Shown here: positions 51,343 to 63,875 of the stretch, one piece after another | Layout: every line of letters begins with the position of its first letter | How positions within the stretch are numbered: position 1 is the first letter of the stretch | Source of the DNA: Xanthocytophaga agilis | GTDB taxonomy: Bacteria; Bacteroidota; Bacteroidia; Cytophagales; 172606-1 | Length of the DNA: 64,000 bases | Direction: 5' to 3' | NCBI RefSeq assembly: GCF_030068605.1 | Contig: NZ_JASJOU010000004.1 | Coordinates: 124,001-188,000 of the forward strand | The notes under the pieces: model-generated | The model's input: the letters and a program-made list of their open reading frames with translations, nothing else | What the model was told of the DNA's origin: nothing | Database searches by the model: none | Made by a program: the position numbers and the translations under genes

Positions 51343-53511
51343 TTATCCTATCCGGATTTTCGCTTTCTCAGTAATCTTCCAGAAATTTCCGTTGCGTTCC
51401 AGTTTACCTGTTTGCAGTGTATATATTTTTTGATTTAAAACAGGTTCTACCTCTGCCAGTACACAGGCTGGATGCAGATAGAAACGCTTATTCTTTAATG
51501 CTGCATCCTGAGCCACTGCATTATCTGCAATCCGAAAAGTTGCAGTAGTAGCACTGATAACGTGAATTTCATATAAAGAGTCTGATTGTAAGGTGGTGGT
51601 TAGCTTATCCGCTTCGAAGGCCTCAAATAGTCCTACTGCTCTGGCATATAAAGTTGTATTGATAAGTGTTGAAAAGCCAGAGTCTGCAGAAGGTGTTGAT
51701 ACACTTTTTTCTTCCGGTTGTGGTATAGGTATAACAACAGGCGGGGATGTACTGACTGGCTGTGACGGTGTTAAAGGTTCACTGGGCAACGTTTTTTGTT
51801 GAGATGTTGCTGTATACACAGGAAATGTACCACTGGTTTTGATCGCATATTTGGTAGATACTGGAATATTTGACAACTCAAATATTCGGTCAATAGTAGA
51901 GGCTGAGATATATACCAGTGAGCCCTGTACCAGCAAACTTCGTTTTTTAAATGCAGTTAGCTCGCCACTGGATTTAATTTCCTCATACAGTTCAATAAAA
52001 TCGTTAAGTTCAGATTCCAGCTTTTCAATATCTACTCCTGCTGCTTCTGCCTGTTTTTGAATAAGTTTAAGTGTCAGTTTGGATAACCGCTGACCTGTAG
52101 GCAATGCTTCTGTTGCCCATTCATTAAGAAATATCTTAAAACTTTCCAATGATGGATTTTGTATACTGCTGACAGATTCTTCAACAGAAGCGTTCTTCAC
52201 TACGACAGGTTCCTGTGGAATAATACGTTTGTTTACTGCATCTATAATTTCCTGTACAGAAGCATATCGTTGTTTGGGATCTGCCTGGGTACATTTTTGG
52301 ATAATGGCTGCATAGACCGGATCGGCAATTTTGGAAAGGTCTATAGTATGAGGCTGTTCCCGGCTAAGCATAGCATACAATACACAACCTATTGCATAGA
52401 TATCTGTCAGCATGGTTACATCCTTCTGATCTCCATGTTGCTCTGGAGCCATATAACCTACTGTACCCATATCAAATACATCAATGTCCGGATAAGAGGG
52501 ATGTTTGGCAAAGCCAAAATCAATAATCTTAGGTAGCCAGATCTGGGTATCTATCAGGATATTCATGGGCTTCAGGTCCCGATGTACCATCCAATGAGCA
52601 TGAATATGTCGTATACCTTCCAGAATGCCCAGAAATATATCTTTCAGTCGTTCGGGAAGCAGTTGATTACTATCAATCAGGTGCTGTAATGAATGCCCAT
52701 TGATCCGTTCCATAACATAGTATGGACCAAATTCATTCTCATCTGAATACAGTATTGTGATGATATTCTTATGGTATGGCAGTACTGTTCCCAAGTTAAT
52801 TTCCCGCATAAAATATTCGCGGGTTTTGGCATCAGCACGCCGTTCAGGCTTGAGCCGTTTTATCACCACATCCCGGCCACTGATAGCTTGTGTAGCAAAA
52901 AACAATTCTCCCATAGCACCCTGCTGAGGCACAGGTCGCATTTTGACAAATTTATCAAACCCTCTGCCATACAAGCTCTGATTCTGTGCTTGTTCAGTGG
53001 TCAGATGTTCTGTTGAAGAGTAAGAATGAGCAACAGGAGAGGATGGCGTTTCATTGGTAGTAAATGATGATCCGCTACTACCTGAACCTGAAAAAGGATC
53101 TTTGGAGGGAGTTGTAGCAATTGGAGAATCGGATGGAGAAGTAGAAAACCCGGATTGTTGAGTGGTTGTATCAGATTCCTCTGGATTTACTTGAGTAAAG
53201 CCAGATTGAAACGAATTTGGTGAAGTAGTGGGGTGATCTGTCTTAGGAGCCAGTGATAGCCACTCTGCAATATTTTCGTTTGGCTCTCCTATAAGTGCTA
53301 GTGGAGCCTCTGGTTGTACTTCCGATCCTGCTTTAGCAAAGATATGTAGTAAAGTCCCAGGTAAATAGGCTTTTACTGGATAATCGGTATTACCTGACCG
53401 TATTTCTACCAAAAGATCTCCAAACAGCACTTCTTGTCCTGTTTCTTTTTCCCACCAGGTAACGATTCCTCCTGTAAAAGGTAATTCAGGTGCTTTTACT
53501 AAAATGGCCAT
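51343..53511 (-). CDS. Ser/Thr protein kinase with N-terminal lipoyl-like domain
   Basis: 722 residues. Residues 1-80 have the biotinyl/lipoyl beta-barrel pattern (LLVEIRSGNTDYPVKAYLPG, then GSEVQPEAPLALIGE), but the lysine at the hairpin tip is replaced (RSGN; Asn41). A Ser/Thr/Pro-rich linker (85-180) leads to the kinase (~195-430): Lys218, Glu237, HRD with Asp312, DFG at 331-333, APEQ. The C-terminal ~290 residues contain a helical region and a Pro/Ser-rich linker, then a small beta-rich end. No transmembrane helix. All catalytic residues are present. First gene of an operon with DUF1800 and DUF1501. Confidence 0.88.
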   Translation of the reverse strand: MAILVKAPELPFTGGIVTWWEKETGQEVLFGDLLVEIRSGNTDYPVKAYLPGTLLHIFAKAGSEVQPEAPLALIGEPNENIAEWLSLAPKTDHPTTSPNSFQSGFTQVNPEESDTTTQQSGFSTSPSDSPIATTPSKDPFSGSGSSGSSFTTNETPSSPVAHSYSSTEHLTTEQAQNQSLYGRGFDKFVKMRPVPQQGAMGELFFATQAISGRDVVIKRLKPERRADAKTREYFMREINLGTVLPYHKNIITILYSDENEFGPYYVMERINGHSLQHLIDSNQLLPERLKDIFLGILEGIRHIHAHWMVHRDLKPMNILIDTQIWLPKIIDFGFAKHPSYPDIDVFDMGTVGYMAPEQHGDQKDVTMLTDIYAIGCVLYAMLSREQPHTIDLSKIADPVYAAIIQKCTQADPKQRYASVQEIIDAVNKRIIPQEPVVVKNASVEESVSSIQNPSLESFKIFLNEWATEALPTGQRLSKLTLKLIQKQAEAAGVDIEKLESELNDFIELYEEIKSSGELTAFKKRSLLVQGSLVYISASTIDRIFELSNIPVSTKYAIKTSGTFPVYTATSQQKTLPSEPLTPSQPVSTSPPVVIPIPQPEEKSVSTPSADSGFSTLINTTLYARAVGLFEAFEADKLTTTLQSDSLYEIHVISATTATFRIADNAVAQDAALKNKRFYLHPACVLAEVEPVLNQKIYTLQTGKLERNGNFWKITEKAKIRIG

Positions 53512-53801: not shown

Positions 53802-55649
53802 TTAATTACCTGCTATATAAAATATTTTTAAGTCTTTATTGAATTTAATAACTGTTTTAGCTCTTACCATTTTCATGGCAGAAGAGGTGCGTCGGCGAAA
53901 GTGGTAATTCATATAGAAGCTGACTTTGACGTATTCATCATCTGTATTTACTTCATGTTTGAATGTGCTCCAGTCTATTACGTTCATATCTTCAGGTGTT
54001 TTTTCCCAGAAGTTGGTTAGTATAGGTTGAAGCTCTTCTACCTTGACATCGTTTCTGTTAAAATACTTCTCTATAGTAGGAGCAAAGTAGGTTTCAACAG
54101 CTGTAAAGTTATGTTGTTCCAGATCATGGTAGTAATCCTCAATAACACTCTTTAAGTTGCTTTCATTGGTAAGTCGGCTTTCTATCGCATCTTTTTCTTT
54201 TTGTTGTTGCTTATAGTAAAAATAAATACCACCAGCCAAAACACCCAGCAGGATAACTTTCCATCCAATATTAAGTCGTTGCCACCATCGGATTACACCT
54301 ACGAAGAGAAGTATAATGATACCAAAGGAAATCAGTGAAAGGATAACTTTTAGAAAACGATCTTCCTGTTCCTGTGCAGCATAACTTACTCCAGCCAAGG
54401 CTGCCAGACCTACAATCCACCATACCCAGCCATAGTTCGTTTGTTTGGTGGGAACAGAGTTTATATATACAGGTGTGGGTACTTGTTGTGGTTTGCTTTG
54501 TTGTTTTATCTTTTGCTCACGCTGCTGGAGTTCTTGTTCTTTACGGCGTAATTCTTCTTCTTTCTTCTGGAGAGCATTGGGTTCAATAGTTTCCCTTGGA
54601 ACGACTTTCTCTTCAGTTGTTGCTTTAAATAGCTGACTTGTATTGATCTCTATCAGATCCAGAATTTCATCTGCATTATGGTATCGATCGTCTGGTTCCA
54701 GTTGGGTACATTTCTGGATAATTCCTCTCCAAAGAGTATGTTTTACAGTACCTATTCTATCTTTGGATGGATTTCCTGTAAACATTTCCAGTAGTATAAT
54801 GCCAAATGCATAGAGATCTGCTCTTCCATCAACATTGGTAGTGTTTAATGTTTGTTCTGGTGAAGCATAGGTTTTCGTCCCTATGAAGGTTGCATTTTTG
54901 ATGTCATCAAAGGTATCGGCAGCTGCCAGCCCAAAATCGATAATCTTAACATTGTCGCCCCGATTGGTAATGAGAATGTTGTCTGGTTTCAGGTCACGAT
55001 GATAGACTTGTTTTTTATGGGCATAACTCAATGCCTGGAGCATTTCTGTTGCAACTTTACGTACAAACCGTTCATCAGAAATACCACCTTCCGGAATACG
55101 ATGAGATAAAGGTTGTCCATCTACATATTCCATATAGAAGAATGGCCCTTCCTGATCTTCTCCTCGCCCATAAATGTTGACAATATGTTCATGTTGTAAA
55201 TCACGGCCATTGAAATACTCCTTAAAGAATAACTCGATGTATGTAGGATTAGTCCGATGTTCTGGAAGCAATCGTTTCACTACAACCCATCTGCCATCAA
55301 GACGTGCTTTCTGTGTCAGACTCATTGCCCCCTGTTGGGCAAGAGGCATGCTATCTGTGAATGTGGAGGTAAATCGTATACCCGACCAGTTAGTATTTAT
55401 TGTATTTGTACCTGTTGTCTGGGATGTTATACCAGATGGTTCATTGGTTATAAAAGAAGAAGCATTATCATTACCGGATGATGTTGACAGAGTACCTGAA
55501 TCTGGGTCATTGACTGCATCCTTGGATATAATAAACCCTGAACCATCATCTGAGTTTGTTTCAGATGGAGGGATTGAGTTGTTACTGGTAACAAATTGAG
55601 ATTGTTCTTTTGGTGAATCGTCGTTAGTATGTTCGTTGATCCCGGCCAT
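53802..55649 (-). CDS. Membrane-anchored Ser/Thr protein kinase
   Basis: 615 residues. A Ser/Thr/Asn-rich N-terminus (1-100) precedes a kinase domain (~102-335): Lys125, Glu144, HRD with Asp219, DFG 238-240, SPEQ. A charged coiled coil (360-385) leads to three hydrophobic helices (~405-424, 434-455, 463-480) and a C-terminal ~120-residue domain that looks NTF2/SnoaL-like (VIEDYYHDLEQHNFTAVETY), likely on the far side of the membrane. The opening PLAQQGAM matches PVPQQGAM in the other kinase, so the kinase domains are close relatives. Its own terminator and a large palindrome at 55733 flank it. Confidence 0.88.
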   Translation of the reverse strand: MAGINEHTNDDSPKEQSQFVTSNNSIPPSETNSDDGSGFIISKDAVNDPDSGTLSTSSGNDNASSFITNEPSGITSQTTGTNTINTNWSGIRFTSTFTDSMPLAQQGAMSLTQKARLDGRWVVVKRLLPEHRTNPTYIELFFKEYFNGRDLQHEHIVNIYGRGEDQEGPFFYMEYVDGQPLSHRIPEGGISDERFVRKVATEMLQALSYAHKKQVYHRDLKPDNILITNRGDNVKIIDFGLAAADTFDDIKNATFIGTKTYASPEQTLNTTNVDGRADLYAFGIILLEMFTGNPSKDRIGTVKHTLWRGIIQKCTQLEPDDRYHNADEILDLIEINTSQLFKATTEEKVVPRETIEPNALQKKEEELRRKEQELQQREQKIKQQSKPQQVPTPVYINSVPTKQTNYGWVWWIVGLAALAGVSYAAQEQEDRFLKVILSLISFGIIILLFVGVIRWWQRLNIGWKVILLGVLAGGIYFYYKQQQKEKDAIESRLTNESNLKSVIEDYYHDLEQHNFTAVETYFAPTIEKYFNRNDVKVEELQPILTNFWEKTPEDMNVIDWSTFKHEVNTDDEYVKVSFYMNYHFRRRTSSAMKMVRAKTVIKFNKDLKIFYIAGN

Positions 55650-56703: not shown

Positions 56704-58161
56704 TTATACTTTCTTTAAAACATTCAGGGCTCCGCTAGGTGTATAGTCTCCCAATGATTTTCCGCTACGCATTATATTTTTGAAAACTGGTTTTTGTCCA
56801 AATAACAGCGTATCAATGCTAAACTGGTCACCAGTGATGATTTGCGAATTGTAATGTTTTACTACTACGAATAAACTATTACCAAGGTGCAAAGCTCTGA
56901 TCATTCGGTCATTCCATCCTATTTCGAGCTGTTGACCTATGCTTAATTGTGTAGTAACTACAACAGTTTCAAACTGCAGTGAAGGGGGAGGGATATGCGA
57001 TGAAGGTATATTTTGCTCTATTGGCTGTGGAGCAGTCTGTGGTTTTTCCTGGTATTGTTTTCGCAAAAAAACACCATTTAAGATCCCTTTTTCATCGGTC
57101 TCATTACATAGCAGAAGTTTATGGGCACCAAATCGACTAAATTCCAGTTTAAGTTCCTGACTATTACACAAACTTTCTCCAATCAAAATGATTTTGTCAA
57201 TATCTTCTGTTCGATGGTTACTGTTAGTTAAAAACTGATCGAATGTTTGTCCAAGACTGCGTACATGGTAAGTTACCTGCTGTTCAATCTCATCTTTTTT
57301 CAGAACAACCTTGTTTTCGGCCGATTTTTCTATAGCAAAGTTAGACTTTACATCAATAAACGGGCGGACATCTGTATCCATTTGTCGGACCCATTCTTTG
57401 GCCATCCGAAAATGACGCTTGGTTTCTTTTTCGATTTCTTCTTTGCTGGATAAAAGTCTTCTCTGGTTATTGATATAATTTACTGCATAGGCGGCTACTA
57501 CATTGATCCGGCTGTCTACCCCCATCAATGAGTATGTGTGTGTGGCTATACGTTCTACAGCTGATGCATTGTAACATTGTACAAGCGAATAATTCAGATT
57601 TTCATTGAATGCTTCTGCTATCACTATTTTCTTTTGTAGTGGATGACTCAACTTGCCATTCTCAAATAAACTGAGTGCAAGCATTTCTGCCGGGATGAAA
57701 GTCGTTTGATCAACCTCATATCCTATCCGTTGTAGATAATCAGCAAAAACCTTCTGAGAGGCTACGGATACATTGTCTGAAAAAAGCAGGGAAACAGGAA
57801 TGGCTGCTGTAGGATCAAGAGAACTGGTTAGTTCCCCTAAAATACTCAGGTACTGACGACGAAGATCATCCATTATCACTTTTAACAACTCTACTACTGG
57901 CACCATATATTGAAATGCCTGGTAGTGTAGCTTATCATCTAAAATACTTTGAAGAAAATTGCCATATGTATTGGGTTGACTGTCTTCGTATTCCTGACGA
58001 TAACGCTCCCCATAGAATATTTTACTGCTTGAAGGATCAACAAAGAAGAAAAGAGGTATCCGAAAAATGTCCCGGACTACAATAGGAATAAAAGTATCAA
58101 AAGGCTTTACACCAGCCATTAAGAAATCAGTATCTACATAAATTACCAGTCGACGATTCAT
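56704..58161 (-). CDS. Divergent Hsp70/actin-fold ATPase-like protein
   Basis: 485 residues, soluble. The order of segments follows Hsp70: MNRRLVIYVDTDFLMAG (first phosphate strand, altered), IPVSLLFSDNVSVASQKVFA then YLQRIGYEVDQTTFIPAEML (cf. the 'PAYF-D-QR ... EPTAAA' region), VVAAYAVNYI, EEIEKETKRHFRMAKEWVRQ (cf. the 'CE-AK-LS' helix), and DKIILIGESLCNSQELK (cf. 'VLVGGSTRIP'). The glycine-rich phosphate loops are weak, so nucleotide binding is uncertain. No substrate-binding domain of standard form; the last ~130 residues hold a Pro-rich linker and a beta-rich end. It lies between kinases and phosphatases in the signalling island. Confidence 0.65.
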   Translation of the reverse strand: MNRRLVIYVDTDFLMAGVKPFDTFIPIVVRDIFRIPLFFFVDPSSSKIFYGERYRQEYEDSQPNTYGNFLQSILDDKLHYQAFQYMVPVVELLKVIMDDLRRQYLSILGELTSSLDPTAAIPVSLLFSDNVSVASQKVFADYLQRIGYEVDQTTFIPAEMLALSLFENGKLSHPLQKKIVIAEAFNENLNYSLVQCYNASAVERIATHTYSLMGVDSRINVVAAYAVNYINNQRRLLSSKEEIEKETKRHFRMAKEWVRQMDTDVRPFIDVKSNFAIEKSAENKVVLKKDEIEQQVTYHVRSLGQTFDQFLTNSNHRTEDIDKIILIGESLCNSQELKLEFSRFGAHKLLLCNETDEKGILNGVFLRKQYQEKPQTAPQPIEQNIPSSHIPPPSLQFETVVVTTQLSIGQQLEIGWNDRMIRALHLGNSLFVVVKHYNSQIITGDQFSIDTLLFGQKPVFKNIMRSGKSLGDYTPSGALNVLKKV

Positions 58162-58593: not shown

Positions 58594-59343
58594 ATGAAAA
58601 AAGTTTTCCTATCAATTGCTGCTGTTGCAGCTATGGTTTTTACAGCACAAGCTCAATTTAAAATTACTCCCAAAGTAGGCTATACGGCTTCCACATGGGG
58701 TTTTTCAAAGGATGTTAAAGATGAAATTAAAGATGCTGATGGAAAAATATCTTTAACTTCAGGATTTTCTGCAGGTGCTGCATTTGAATTAGGGGTGAGT
58801 GACCAATTTTCTATACAGCCAGAAATTCTGTATACTCAGAAAGGTTATAAGCTTTCTGGTAAGGAAAGTGATGGTGAAGGTGGAAGTTATGATGCAAAGA
58901 TGGATACCAAATTCAATTATTTGGAAATCCCTGTATTATTTAAAGCTTCTTTTGGTGACGAAGATGCACTTCGTTTCTTTGGCTATGTAGGTCCATATTT
59001 TGGATATGCACTAAATGGAAAATCTAAAAGTAAGCTTAGCAGTGGTGGTGCAAGCATAGATTTTACTACTAAAATAAAATTTGGTGATGAACCAGAGAAT
59101 GCTGCCGATGATGAAGAATACTATTCAAGTGATGACGCAAATCGTTTAGATATCGGAGCGTATGTAGGAGCCGGAGCTAGCTTACCAGTAGGCCCAGGTG
59201 CTATTTCTCTGGAAGCACGTTATGGATATGGTCTTACCAATTTTTACAAAACACCTGATGGTGGAGATAAAAAAGATTATAAATCTCAAACAAGGACAAT
59301 TGGTATATTTGTTGGGTATTCAATTCCTCTTGGTGGAAAATAA
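58594..59343 (+). CDS. Outer-membrane beta-barrel (PorT-like), copy 1
   Basis: 249 residues. The signal peptide (residues 1-20, MKKVFLSIAAVAAMVFTAQA) is followed by an eight-strand barrel of the outer-membrane protein beta-barrel family: FKITPKVGYTASTWGF, then FSIQPEILYTQKGYKL, FFGYVGPYFGYALNG, and the last strand RTIGIFVGYSIPLGGK. Alternating aromatic/hydrophobic strands, Gly-rich turns, and acidic loops (DDEEYYSSDDAN) are clear. It is followed by its own terminator and by a paralogue at 59660, with which it shares the first 77 bases exactly. Confidence 0.88.
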   Translation: MKKVFLSIAAVAAMVFTAQAQFKITPKVGYTASTWGFSKDVKDEIKDADGKISLTSGFSAGAAFELGVSDQFSIQPEILYTQKGYKLSGKESDGEGGSYDAKMDTKFNYLEIPVLFKASFGDEDALRFFGYVGPYFGYALNGKSKSKLSSGGASIDFTTKIKFGDEPENAADDEEYYSSDDANRLDIGAYVGAGASLPVGPGAISLEARYGYGLTNFYKTPDGGDKKDYKSQTRTIGIFVGYSIPLGGK

Positions 59344-59369
59344 TTTAAATCTTTTGATTTAATAGAAAG

Positions 59370-59401
59370 CCCTTTGTCATCAGGCAGAGGGTTTTTCTTT
59401 T
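59370..59401 (+). terminator. Rho-independent terminator of barrel copy 1
   Basis: CCCTTTG (59370-59376) pairs with CAGAGGG (59385-59391), followed by TTTTTCTTTT. Confidence 0.75.
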
Positions 59402-59571
59402 GTAGGAAAGTAAATCTACAAAAATCAGAGAATAGACTCTATATAAATTGGCCCTATTCAAAATTCCCTATTACTGAAAGTGATAGGGAATTTTATTTTT
59501 TGATAGTAATGTGTATAAATCGGTTATTATTTTTATATTTTTCAGAATTGAAGTTTTACCAAACTTGATAT

Positions 59572-59588
59572 TACTTGTTTCACAAGTA
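59572..59588. promoter_or_regulatory. Short palindrome before barrel copy 2
   Basis: TACTTGT-TTC-ACAAGTA, perfect seven-base arms, about 70 bases before the ATG at 59660. It may be an operator; no cognate regulator is adjacent. Confidence 0.35.
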
Positions 59589-59659
59589 GTATGGTCTGAT
59601 TATTGTTGAGTTATTTAAGGGTATTTTTATTTTTTTTACTACTATTCAGCTATCAGATT

Positions 59660-60361
59660 ATGAAAAAAGTTTTCCTATCAATTGCTGCTGTTGCAGCTAT
59701 GGTTTTTACAGCACAAGCTCAATTTAAAATTACTCCTAAAATAGGCTATACTGTGTCCAAAATGAGTATTTCTGATCTTATAAAGGATGACGAGTCTGAT
59801 ATCGCTTTTACATCCGGGTTTTCGGCTGGGGCAGCTTTTGAACTGGGTATAGGAGACATTTTTTCTATACAGCCGGAGATCTTATATACTCAAAAAGGAT
59901 TTAAAGAAAAATACGATGATGGAAATATAGATTATCATATTAATCATTTAGAAGTACCCATCCTTTTAAAAGAGACTTTTGGAGAGGAAGATAATCTGCA
60001 ATTTTTTGGTTATGTAGGCCCTTATTTGGGATATGCTTTAGGTGGTAAGTTGAAGGATAAAGAAAATGGTATGTCTTCTACTTCTAAAATTAAATTTAAA
60101 GATGAACCAGAAAATTATAGTGGTGGTGATATTTATATTTCAAAGAATGAAGTAAATCGGCTTGATATTGGAGCTTATGTTGGTGCTGGCGTAAGTTTAC
60201 CGGTAGGTCCAGGTGCTTTCTCGCTGGAAGCCCGCTATGGGTATGGATTTACTAATTTTAGGAAAGATCCTGATAATAGTGCTTCCAGGAAAGATCTGAA
60301 ATCGCAAAACAGAACGATTGGAGTATTTTTAGGTTATTCTATTTCATTAAGAGGAAACTGA
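59660..60361 (+). CDS. Outer-membrane beta-barrel (PorT-like), copy 2
   Basis: 233 residues from ATG 59660, where the same signal peptide as copy 1 begins; 19 upstream codons in frame are hydrophobic AT-rich sequence and not a gene start. The barrel again ends with RTIGVFLGYSISLRGN, and strands FSIQPEILYTQKGF and FFGYVGPYLGYALGG are shared with copy 1. Away from the first 77 bases the DNA is clearly divergent. The two may be differently regulated envelope proteins; ligands are not known. Confidence 0.88.
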   Translation: MKKVFLSIAAVAAMVFTAQAQFKITPKIGYTVSKMSISDLIKDDESDIAFTSGFSAGAAFELGIGDIFSIQPEILYTQKGFKEKYDDGNIDYHINHLEVPILLKETFGEEDNLQFFGYVGPYLGYALGGKLKDKENGMSSTSKIKFKDEPENYSGGDIYISKNEVNRLDIGAYVGAGVSLPVGPGAFSLEARYGYGFTNFRKDPDNSASRKDLKSQNRTIGVFLGYSISLRGN

Positions 60362-62300: not shown

Positions 62301-63875
62301 ATGAAACGTTCTTTTTTCAAAGTTCGCATGGCTACCGCTATGTTGTGTATTACCTTATTGTCCGCTTGTCACTCAGGTCGTCGTGAGTCAACGGAAGCAT
62401 ATGATATGACTACGGATGCACTGGAGGTAGCAGCACCTGAGGCGATGAATACTGAATCATATGCCTATATCAAAGAAAATGGCTTTCAGGATGCTACCCA
62501 CACTCCTTTGTCTACTTTCTCTGTTGATGTAGATGCGGCCAGTTATGCCAATGTGCGTCGCTTTATTACCAGTGGACAAAAACCACCTGTAGATGCTGTT
62601 CGCATCGAAGAACTGGTCAACTATTTTGATTACGAATATCCTCAGCCTACGGCTAATCAGCCATTTTCTGTTACAACAGAGGTAGGTATCTGCCCCTGGA
62701 ACCCCGAACATCATCTGGTACATATAGGCTTGCAGGGGAAAAAGCTGGCAACAGAAGATCTGCCTGCTAGTAACTTGGTGTTCCTGATTGATGTATCAGG
62801 ATCTATGAATGAACCAGATAAGCTACCTCTTCTCCAAAAAGCGTTTGGACTTCTGACTGATAATCTGAGACCTAAAGATAAGGTGGCTATTGTAGTGTAT
62901 GCTGGTGCAGCAGGTCTGGTATTACCAGCCACTTCGGGAACTGATACAGAACAAATTCTGAGTGCTATTGAAAATCTTCAGGCAGGTGGTTCTACAGCTG
63001 GTGGAGAAGGTATTCGGTTAGCCTATCAGGTAGCAGAGGACAACTTTATCAAAGGAGGCAATAACCGGATTATACTGGCTACCGATGGCGATTTCAATGT
63101 AGGGGTTTCCTCTGACTCTGAGATGATCAGACTGGTGGAGGAAAAACGTAAATCAGGTGTGTTTTTAACTGTAATAGGGTTTGGAACTGGAAATATCAAA
63201 GACTCCAAAATGGAAGGGATTGCTGATCATGGCAATGGCAATTACTATTACATTGATTCGGAGATGGAAGCTAGAAAGGTATTGGTAAGTGAAATGGGCG
63301 GTACTTTGTTTACTATTGCCAAAGATGTAAAAATTCAGGTTGAGTTTAATCCTGTAGCTGTGAAATCGTATCGTTTGCTGGGATATGAAAACAGATTGCT
63401 GGAGGACAAAGATTTTACAGACGATACAAAAGATGCAGGAGAAATAGGAGCAGGCCATACTGTAACAGCTTTATATGAGGTAGAGCTGGTAAGCAATAAA
63501 CAAAATGGTGCTCCTGCCTTAAAGTATCAGAATCGGACACCTAATGAAGTAGCTCGTACTTCAGGTGAGTTGGTTACACTAAAGCTTCGCTACAAAAAGC
63601 CTGATGGGGACATAAGTAAAGAGATTGTGCAGGTGGTTACAAAGGACCAGATTCGTATAGAAACATCCGATAACTTCCGTTTCTCTGCGGCTGTAGCAGC
63701 TTATGGTATGCTATTGCGAAATTCTGACTACAAAGCCGACGCTACCTATAATAAGGTAATTATATGGGCCAAAGGTGCGAAAGGTGTTGACTTATCCAGT
63801 TATCGGAGTGATTTTATCAATATGGTAGAATCTACTCAGAATCTGGGTGAGGTGACAGTAGCCAGAGATGAATAA
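62301..63875 (+). CDS. VWA-domain lipoprotein (YfbK-like)
   Basis: 524 residues. Signal peptide with lipobox LLSAC (Cys23). Residues ~60-145 form the N-terminal region of YfbK-like proteins (TFSVDVDAASYANVRRFITS, EELVNYFDYEYPQP). The VWA domain follows (~160-330), MIDAS at FLIDVSGSMNE, with TDGDFNVG at its later metal site. The C-terminal DUF3520-type part (~340-515) ends GEVTVARDE. MIDAS Asp/Ser/Ser are intact, so a divalent metal and protein partner are expected. Inner-leaflet outer-membrane location is likely. It is convergent with an outer-membrane gene cut by the window end. Confidence 0.92.
   Translation: MKRSFFKVRMATAMLCITLLSACHSGRRESTEAYDMTTDALEVAAPEAMNTESYAYIKENGFQDATHTPLSTFSVDVDAASYANVRRFITSGQKPPVDAVRIEELVNYFDYEYPQPTANQPFSVTTEVGICPWNPEHHLVHIGLQGKKLATEDLPASNLVFLIDVSGSMNEPDKLPLLQKAFGLLTDNLRPKDKVAIVVYAGAAGLVLPATSGTDTEQILSAIENLQAGGSTAGGEGIRLAYQVAEDNFIKGGNNRIILATDGDFNVGVSSDSEMIRLVEEKRKSGVFLTVIGFGTGNIKDSKMEGIADHGNGNYYYIDSEMEARKVLVSEMGGTLFTIAKDVKIQVEFNPVAVKSYRLLGYENRLLEDKDFTDDTKDAGEIGAGHTVTALYEVELVSNKQNGAPALKYQNRTPNEVARTSGELVTLKLRYKKPDGDISKEIVQVVTKDQIRIETSDNFRFSAAVAAYGMLLRNSDYKADATYNKVIIWAKGAKGVDLSSYRSDFINMVESTQNLGEVTVARDE

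Follow-up and report, generated by a model that had tools for sequence, protein, structure and literature searches.

The region between positions 51343 and 53511 of the window (the whole stretch of 64,000 nucleotides of Xanthocytophaga agilis DNA that was analysed, from a genome of 9.77 Mb) is a single open reading frame of 722 codons. The interval originally predicted stands as regards its coordinates but has to be read on the minus strand, from 53511 to 51343, the plus-strand frame being riddled with stops. The ORF list and Pfam together divide the 722 amino-acid product into a lipoyl-type domain, a linker, a Ser/Thr kinase domain, a helical region and a C-terminal domain.

The Hanks-type kinase domain (residues 181-440; 52192-52971, minus strand) was delimited by Pfam and motif positions. 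Its score of 136.3 bits with Pfam Pkinase, in the same reading frame as the lipoyl-type domain, bears out the predicted fusion to a Ser/Thr kinase. Since the catalytic Lys (K218, in VVIKRL), HRD (HRDLKPMN, 310-317), DFG (331-333) and APE (355-357) motifs are all in place, the kinase is probably active. Solved relatives of this domain include PDB entries named PknB, and the NCBIfam PASTA kinase model matches the kinase part only. PADLOC, with which five proteins of the window were scanned for a possible defence system, returned 34 families for the kinase; the best 25 of these (with names such as PD-T4-6, mad6, MkoA, Stk2 and C3a189) match mainly the kinase domain.

Residues 452-545 (51877-52158, minus strand), helical by eye, bear a weak likeness to the N-terminal heads of related, sister kinases (hhalign probability 75%, E 2.5e-5, 45 columns). 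These heads are called TerB-like here by eye: Pfam TerB matched neither region 452-545 nor the sister kinase at locus L051. The C-terminal domain of about 110 residues (613-722; 51346-51675, minus strand) gave no significant Pfam match, and in a profile search it resembles the C-ends of membrane proteins in other genomes of the order. Of 291 genomes in the order, 58 contain matches to its profile (A2) at E <= 1e-5, among them the six genomes named below in connection with the fusion, and at the nine best other loci (L071-L079) the same C-end is found, by eye, on proteins with signal or membrane segments that are not kinases. At L079/L080 the protein with this C-end adjoins, again by eye, a MotA/TolQ-like protein.

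Among relatives with a name, Xanthocytophaga flavus (L050; listed as X. flava; Rhodocytophagaceae, Cytophagales) comes closest, with 98% identity in the N-terminal domain. In the window, as in X. flavus, L051 and L052, a second Ser/Thr kinase (615 amino acids; 53802-55649, minus strand) lies upstream of the first and in the same direction, so that it occupies this place in four of five loci; at the fifth, L049, it is absent from the 1.2 kb of upstream sequence covered. Two PP2C genes are situated 7-8.5 kb upstream on the same strand. Downstream of the kinase come DUF1800/DUF1501 genes in the window and in X. flavus, and different genes in L051 and L052. Near the kinases there is also a 485-residue protein (56704-58161, minus strand), actin/Hsp70-like by eye only, for which Pfam, NCBIfam and PADLOC yielded no significant match. 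Two tandem, similar proteins resembling outer-membrane barrels by eye are encoded at 58594-60361 (plus strand); the piece of X. flavus examined (L050, 4214-4909) contains one gene of this appearance, with a different sequence. A link with vWA-ternary conflict systems (PMC7159879, in which the word 'lipoyl' gave no hits) was considered and dropped: the vWA gene of the window, at 62301 (Pfam YfbK_C, VWA), is on the other strand.

An E2-type lipoyl domain at the kinase N-terminus

The familiar role of lipoyl domains is to carry a covalent cofactor in central metabolism, the cofactor being held on one lysine. The N-terminal 85 residues of the kinase (53257-53511, minus strand) were assigned to this family by hhalign, a PDB search and a profile search. 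The Pfam signal lies close to threshold. In the whole protein, Biotin_lipoyl (PF00364) matches residues 15-74 with 17.9 bits, below the gathering cut-off of 22.1; cut out, the window domain reaches 22.3 bits, and its relatives at L051, L052 and L049 score 30.1, 34.5 and 20.4 bits, the last again below the cut-off. A genome scan gave 21.8 bits, and 22.1 with neighbours. Comparison with a profile of 20 E2-type domains yielded an hhalign probability of 99.4 and an E value of 2.5e-21 over 84 columns; these rows were 20 of 24 picked, the four omitted coming from L044 and L046, and all bear the lysine by construction since the row pattern demanded D-K at the tip. The PDB sequence search found 35 distinct sequences at E <= 0.01, the best chain being 9y7v, a pyruvate dehydrogenase (PDH) E2, with an E value of 1.5e-16 for its two lipoyl domains jointly and 8e-8 for the better one. 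In the converse direction, a profile of the five kinase N-termini (A1) was run on 291 genomes of the order and hit 210 of them at E <= 1e-12, the five with the fusion among these, and the 25 matched loci that were examined (L024-L048) all encode E2-type lipoyl domains. The lipoyl-type fold had been proposed for this N-terminus from its sequence pattern; these results support it by homology. Neither the viral contigs scanned for E2 lipoyl domains nor a scan with the kinase itself yielded a relative.

Which type of E2 is nearest differs by method: PDH E2 according to the PDB search, sucB-type E2 according to NCBIfam, whose best models for the cut-out domain are of that type. In a tree the five kinase domains form one clade (support 100/100), which has no settled place among the E2 types (18 of 25 inner branches are open, the bootstrap not being settled).

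Predicted structures were of low confidence, both being built on shallow alignments. When the window sequence headed the alignment of the five domains, AlphaFold gave a pLDDT of 41.0; with L052 first and no templates the pLDDT was 46.9, and this model has strands at 33-39 and 42-47. When the low-confidence L052 model was submitted to Foldseek, the best 30 PDB rows were all, by title, lipoyl or biotinyl proteins, with a best E value of 0.029; there was no PDB match at E <= 0.001.

The hairpin that should carry the cofactor aligns without gaps in the window sequence (E2, EVETDKATMELESY; window, EIRSGNTDYPVKAY), EIRSGNTDY standing opposite EVETDKATM. Within the hairpin RSGNTDYPV (residues 38-46; 53374-53400, minus strand), located by these alignments, residues 38-41 read RSGN, and because the alignment is ungapped Asn41 (53389-53391) can be taken as the replacement of the acceptor lysine. 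Across the five kinase domains the residues in this column are N, S, A, A and G, four of them scored by script and the fifth (L049, with G and a one-residue insertion) read by eye from the alignment. Lysine is thus found in none of the five. By comparison, the tip lysine is kept in 43 of 43 E2-type lipoyl domains from 28 loci, namely L024-L048 and the three E2 loci of the source genome (L002, L004 and L057), whose proteins all match Pfam 2-oxoacid_dh, E3_binding and Biotin_lipoyl. Loci L024-L048 are those that the kinase-domain profile matched best, and these controls accordingly represent near E2 domains rather than lipoyl domains at large. The 43-domain counts are free of the D-K pattern: one of the two profiles used was built from the E2 rows described above and the other from the kinase domains alone, which have no lysine at the tip, and the count is 43 of 43 with either. 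The predicted loss of the acceptor lysine is thus supported, with RSGN at the tip in the window sequence and the lysine absent from the homologues too. Since lysine is missing from all five, the barrel is most readily regarded as a non-modified one, and because the five domains form one clade, a single loss before the lineages split is the simplest account. Elsewhere in the genome a solitary lipoyl-type domain has retained the lysine (STDK); it lies (L060; contig C3 of G000, 632799-632969) at the end of a 284-residue frame that appears, by eye, to have no acyltransferase part.

The fusion was sought through relatives of this domain or protein, a procedure that unrelated lipoyl-kinase fusions would escape, and within that scope no carrier was found outside Xanthocytophaga and its near relatives. 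In a family sample of eight genomes it is present in five (G000, G006, G007, G001 and G002), belonging to two genera. A sixth genome (G003) shows the C-terminal part at a contig end, so that its N-terminus is not assessable; the two genomes of a third genus gave no match at E <= 1e-30. Among 291 genomes of the order the protein was matched at E <= 1e-34 only in those six, G003 through its other kinase, and when the domain profile was run on 395 genomes of the phylum, the source genome alone matched at E <= 1e-18. A scan of a collection of 84,980 species returned four loci, all titled Xanthocytophaga or Cytophagales and corresponding, by their coordinates, to G006, G002, G001 and G007. In two metagenome assemblies (G007 and G001) the kinase frame is broken close to the end of the kinase domain or beyond it (L049, around 2500-2640; L052, around 11200), either through an assembly error or in reality.

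Divergence and constraint of the barrel

The divergence from E2 domains is concentrated in two surface patches. This was assessed by counting alignment cells in which a kinase-domain residue is also present in the same column among the controls. With the 43 controls, 261 of 345 cells (76%) are shared outside the two patches, compared with 13 of 35 (37%) in the β1-β2 loop and 13 of 45 (29%) in the tip, or 13 of 40 (33%) in the tip when column 41 is left out. An earlier count against the 20 lysine-bearing E2 rows described above gave 69%, 34% and 29% for the outside, loop and tip, respectively. The β1-β2 loop is also two residues shorter in the kinase domains than in the E2 controls. At the tip, mostly acidic control positions have become basic: column 38, where the controls have E, A or D, is R in the kinase domains, and column 47 holds E in 35, D in five and other residues in three of the 43 controls, and K in all five kinase domains.

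These patches bear upon the first alternative to be weighed, that the domain imitates a genuine E2 lipoyl domain, the kinase docking on a 2-oxo-acid dehydrogenase complex or on lipoylation enzymes and phosphorylating or sensing them, as a bacterial counterpart of mitochondrial PDH kinase. The relatives of the domain are indeed E2 lipoyl domains, with a PDH E2 as best PDB chain and sucB-type models as best NCBIfam matches; the stretch GTLLHI..K.G and the tail G..GEDI..LL resemble, by eye, E2 domains of the order; and the two best Foldseek rows, obtained with the poor model, are L2 domains out of PDH-kinase complexes. However, the β1-β2 loop and the turn bearing the lipoyl-lysine are important, if not sole, determinants of E1 recognition (NMR review PMC6270654), and it is these patches that have diverged most, the mostly acidic tip positions having turned basic. 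Nor is there, by eye, any dehydrogenase gene beside the kinase gene in the window or at L049-L052. Such mimicry therefore seems unlikely.

The invariant Lys47 might instead be thought to have taken over the modification from the lost lysine, this residue being present in five of five kinase domains and in none of 43 controls at that column. It aligns, though, to the strand after the tip, opposite a mostly acidic position and six residues from the lysine column. The residues that carrier domains keep around the tip lysine (TDKA), which ligases probably need, are gone. A shift of the modification to Lys47 or another lysine is accordingly very hard to credit.

At ten positions all five kinase domains share one residue that is absent among the controls at the same place: E9, P11, T18, W19, R38, G40, K47, L50, F58 and E64, where with five sequences function and shared descent are not separable as the cause. 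Only these ten are given because they are common to both counts; on passing from 20 rows to 43 controls, V17 leaves the list and I3 joins it. Rates of change between the window and X. flavus (dN/dS by NG86, one species pair) are 0.026 for the barrel (a value resting on 21 base differences), 0.178 for the linker, 0.012 for the kinase domain, 0.043 for the helical region, 0.267 for the second linker and 0.079 for the C-terminal domain. The barrel keeps 83 of 85 residues and the linker next to it 76 of 95; one of the two barrel differences is at position 41, N to S.

The occupant of the lysine column is not constant (N, S, A, A, G), as though nothing depended on it, which might suggest that a chance fusion left the domain behind as a relic without a function of its own. 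Its low dN/dS, the 83 of 85 residues kept against 76 of 95 in the adjoining linker, and the ten invariant positions absent among controls all argue to the contrary, and we consider a mere relic highly improbable. On this combination of constraint and kinase-specific invariant residues the N-terminal domain looks selected and probably has some role.

Linker motifs and a proposed role for the domain

The Ser/Thr-rich linker that follows the barrel (residues 86-180; 52972-53256, minus strand) was found by pattern scan to carry motifs of SGF/SSF type. Residues 119-124 and 147-152 fit the stricter pattern, residues 101-107 only the looser S[GST]F. Similar SSFxT-like repeats recur in the N-terminal linkers of the two kinases as well as in those of homologous proteins, two to three in each of nine linkers, and among 46 stop-to-stop frames of at least 150 amino acids in the window the fixed pattern is present only in the two kinases. 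The fractions obtained on shuffling, 0 to 0.015 and up to 0.0425 for the looser form, are descriptive and offer a lead only, the pattern having been written after the motif was spotted and the nine linkers being related. It is possible that the motifs are sites of autophosphorylation or docking. The SGF/SSF-x-T-like repeats of the window fall within 53257-51667 and 55649-53802, both on the minus strand, and a third kinase of the genome (L017; contig C24 of G000) has, by eye, the same motifs behind a TerB-like head.

As the cofactor lysine is missing, the domain has probably been turned to a new use in docking or regulation, and our favoured reading, to which we give somewhat better than even chances, is that an unmodified lipoyl-type barrel serves as docking or regulatory module of a Hanks-type kinase. 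An E2-type lipoyl domain would have come to lie at the N-terminus of a kinase and lost its lysine once, before Xanthocytophaga and its near relatives split. Neither lipoylated nor biotinylated, the barrel would act as a protein-interaction module placing or regulating the kinase, to which a flexible linker would tether it, the repeated SSFxT-like motifs offering phosphorylation or docking sites. The second kinase next door might be its working partner and a nearby PP2C phosphatase its opponent, as gene order would suggest. That the barrel is a binding module we infer from sequence.

A more specific variant would make the barrel a cis phosphopeptide reader, in which the basic hairpin (R38, K47) together with W19 and F58 would bind phosphorylated SSFxT-like motifs of the protein's own linker and of the sister kinase, the pair switching by autophosphorylation. 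This is a long shot, but were it true the domain would be a lipoyl-fold counterpart of FHA domains.

Under the favoured reading, that of a docking or regulatory module, a lysine-less and seemingly selected lipoyl domain on a signalling kinase would illustrate how a metabolic carrier may turn into a signalling module. The system is small and testable, consisting of a single domain of 85 residues in which the charge of the hairpin is reversed and ten invariant residues are absent from E2 controls. No description of a lipoyl-kinase fusion was found in the open-licence literature searched, and the words lipoyl, biotin and lipoate are absent from the main text of a survey of prokaryotic kinase architectures (PMC1262709). 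The protein may be described as a lineage-restricted kinase of Hanks type whose accessory domain is unusual and probably repurposed.

Each part may be compared with its better known counterparts. With the lipoyl domains of E2 dihydrolipoamide acyltransferases (PF00364) the window domain shares homology over its whole length and an ungapped hairpin, but it differs from them in having no acceptor lysine, basic tip positions and a β1-β2 loop shorter by two residues, and in being fused to a kinase rather than to an acyltransferase. The catalytic Lys, HRD, DFG and APE motifs are those of Hanks-type kinases of the PknB type, from which the present protein is set apart by its N-terminal lipoyl-type domain and by a C-terminal domain with no significant Pfam match here. 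Mitochondrial PDH kinases, which are not known to be of Hanks type, offer a parallel in that a protein kinase is tied to a lipoyl domain, the L2 domain of E2 (PDB titles PDHK2-L2 and PDK3-L2). They dock on L2 domains, to judge from PDB titles and from the title of a reference in PMC1266030, and the lipoyl domain so bound belongs to another protein, whereas here it is part of the same chain and lysine-less. Lipoyl domains lacking the lysine are also found in periplasmic adaptors, where mutants suggest a role in stabilising the assembly (PMC4446572). No signal peptide is seen by eye on the window kinase. With the adaptors of AcrA/MexA type the lipoyl-type domain of the kinase would share a lipoyl fold without a modified lysine (PMC4446572); in these adaptors the lysine loop is replaced by a helical hairpin, whereas the domain in the window is uninterrupted, belongs to the E2 type and forms part of a kinase.
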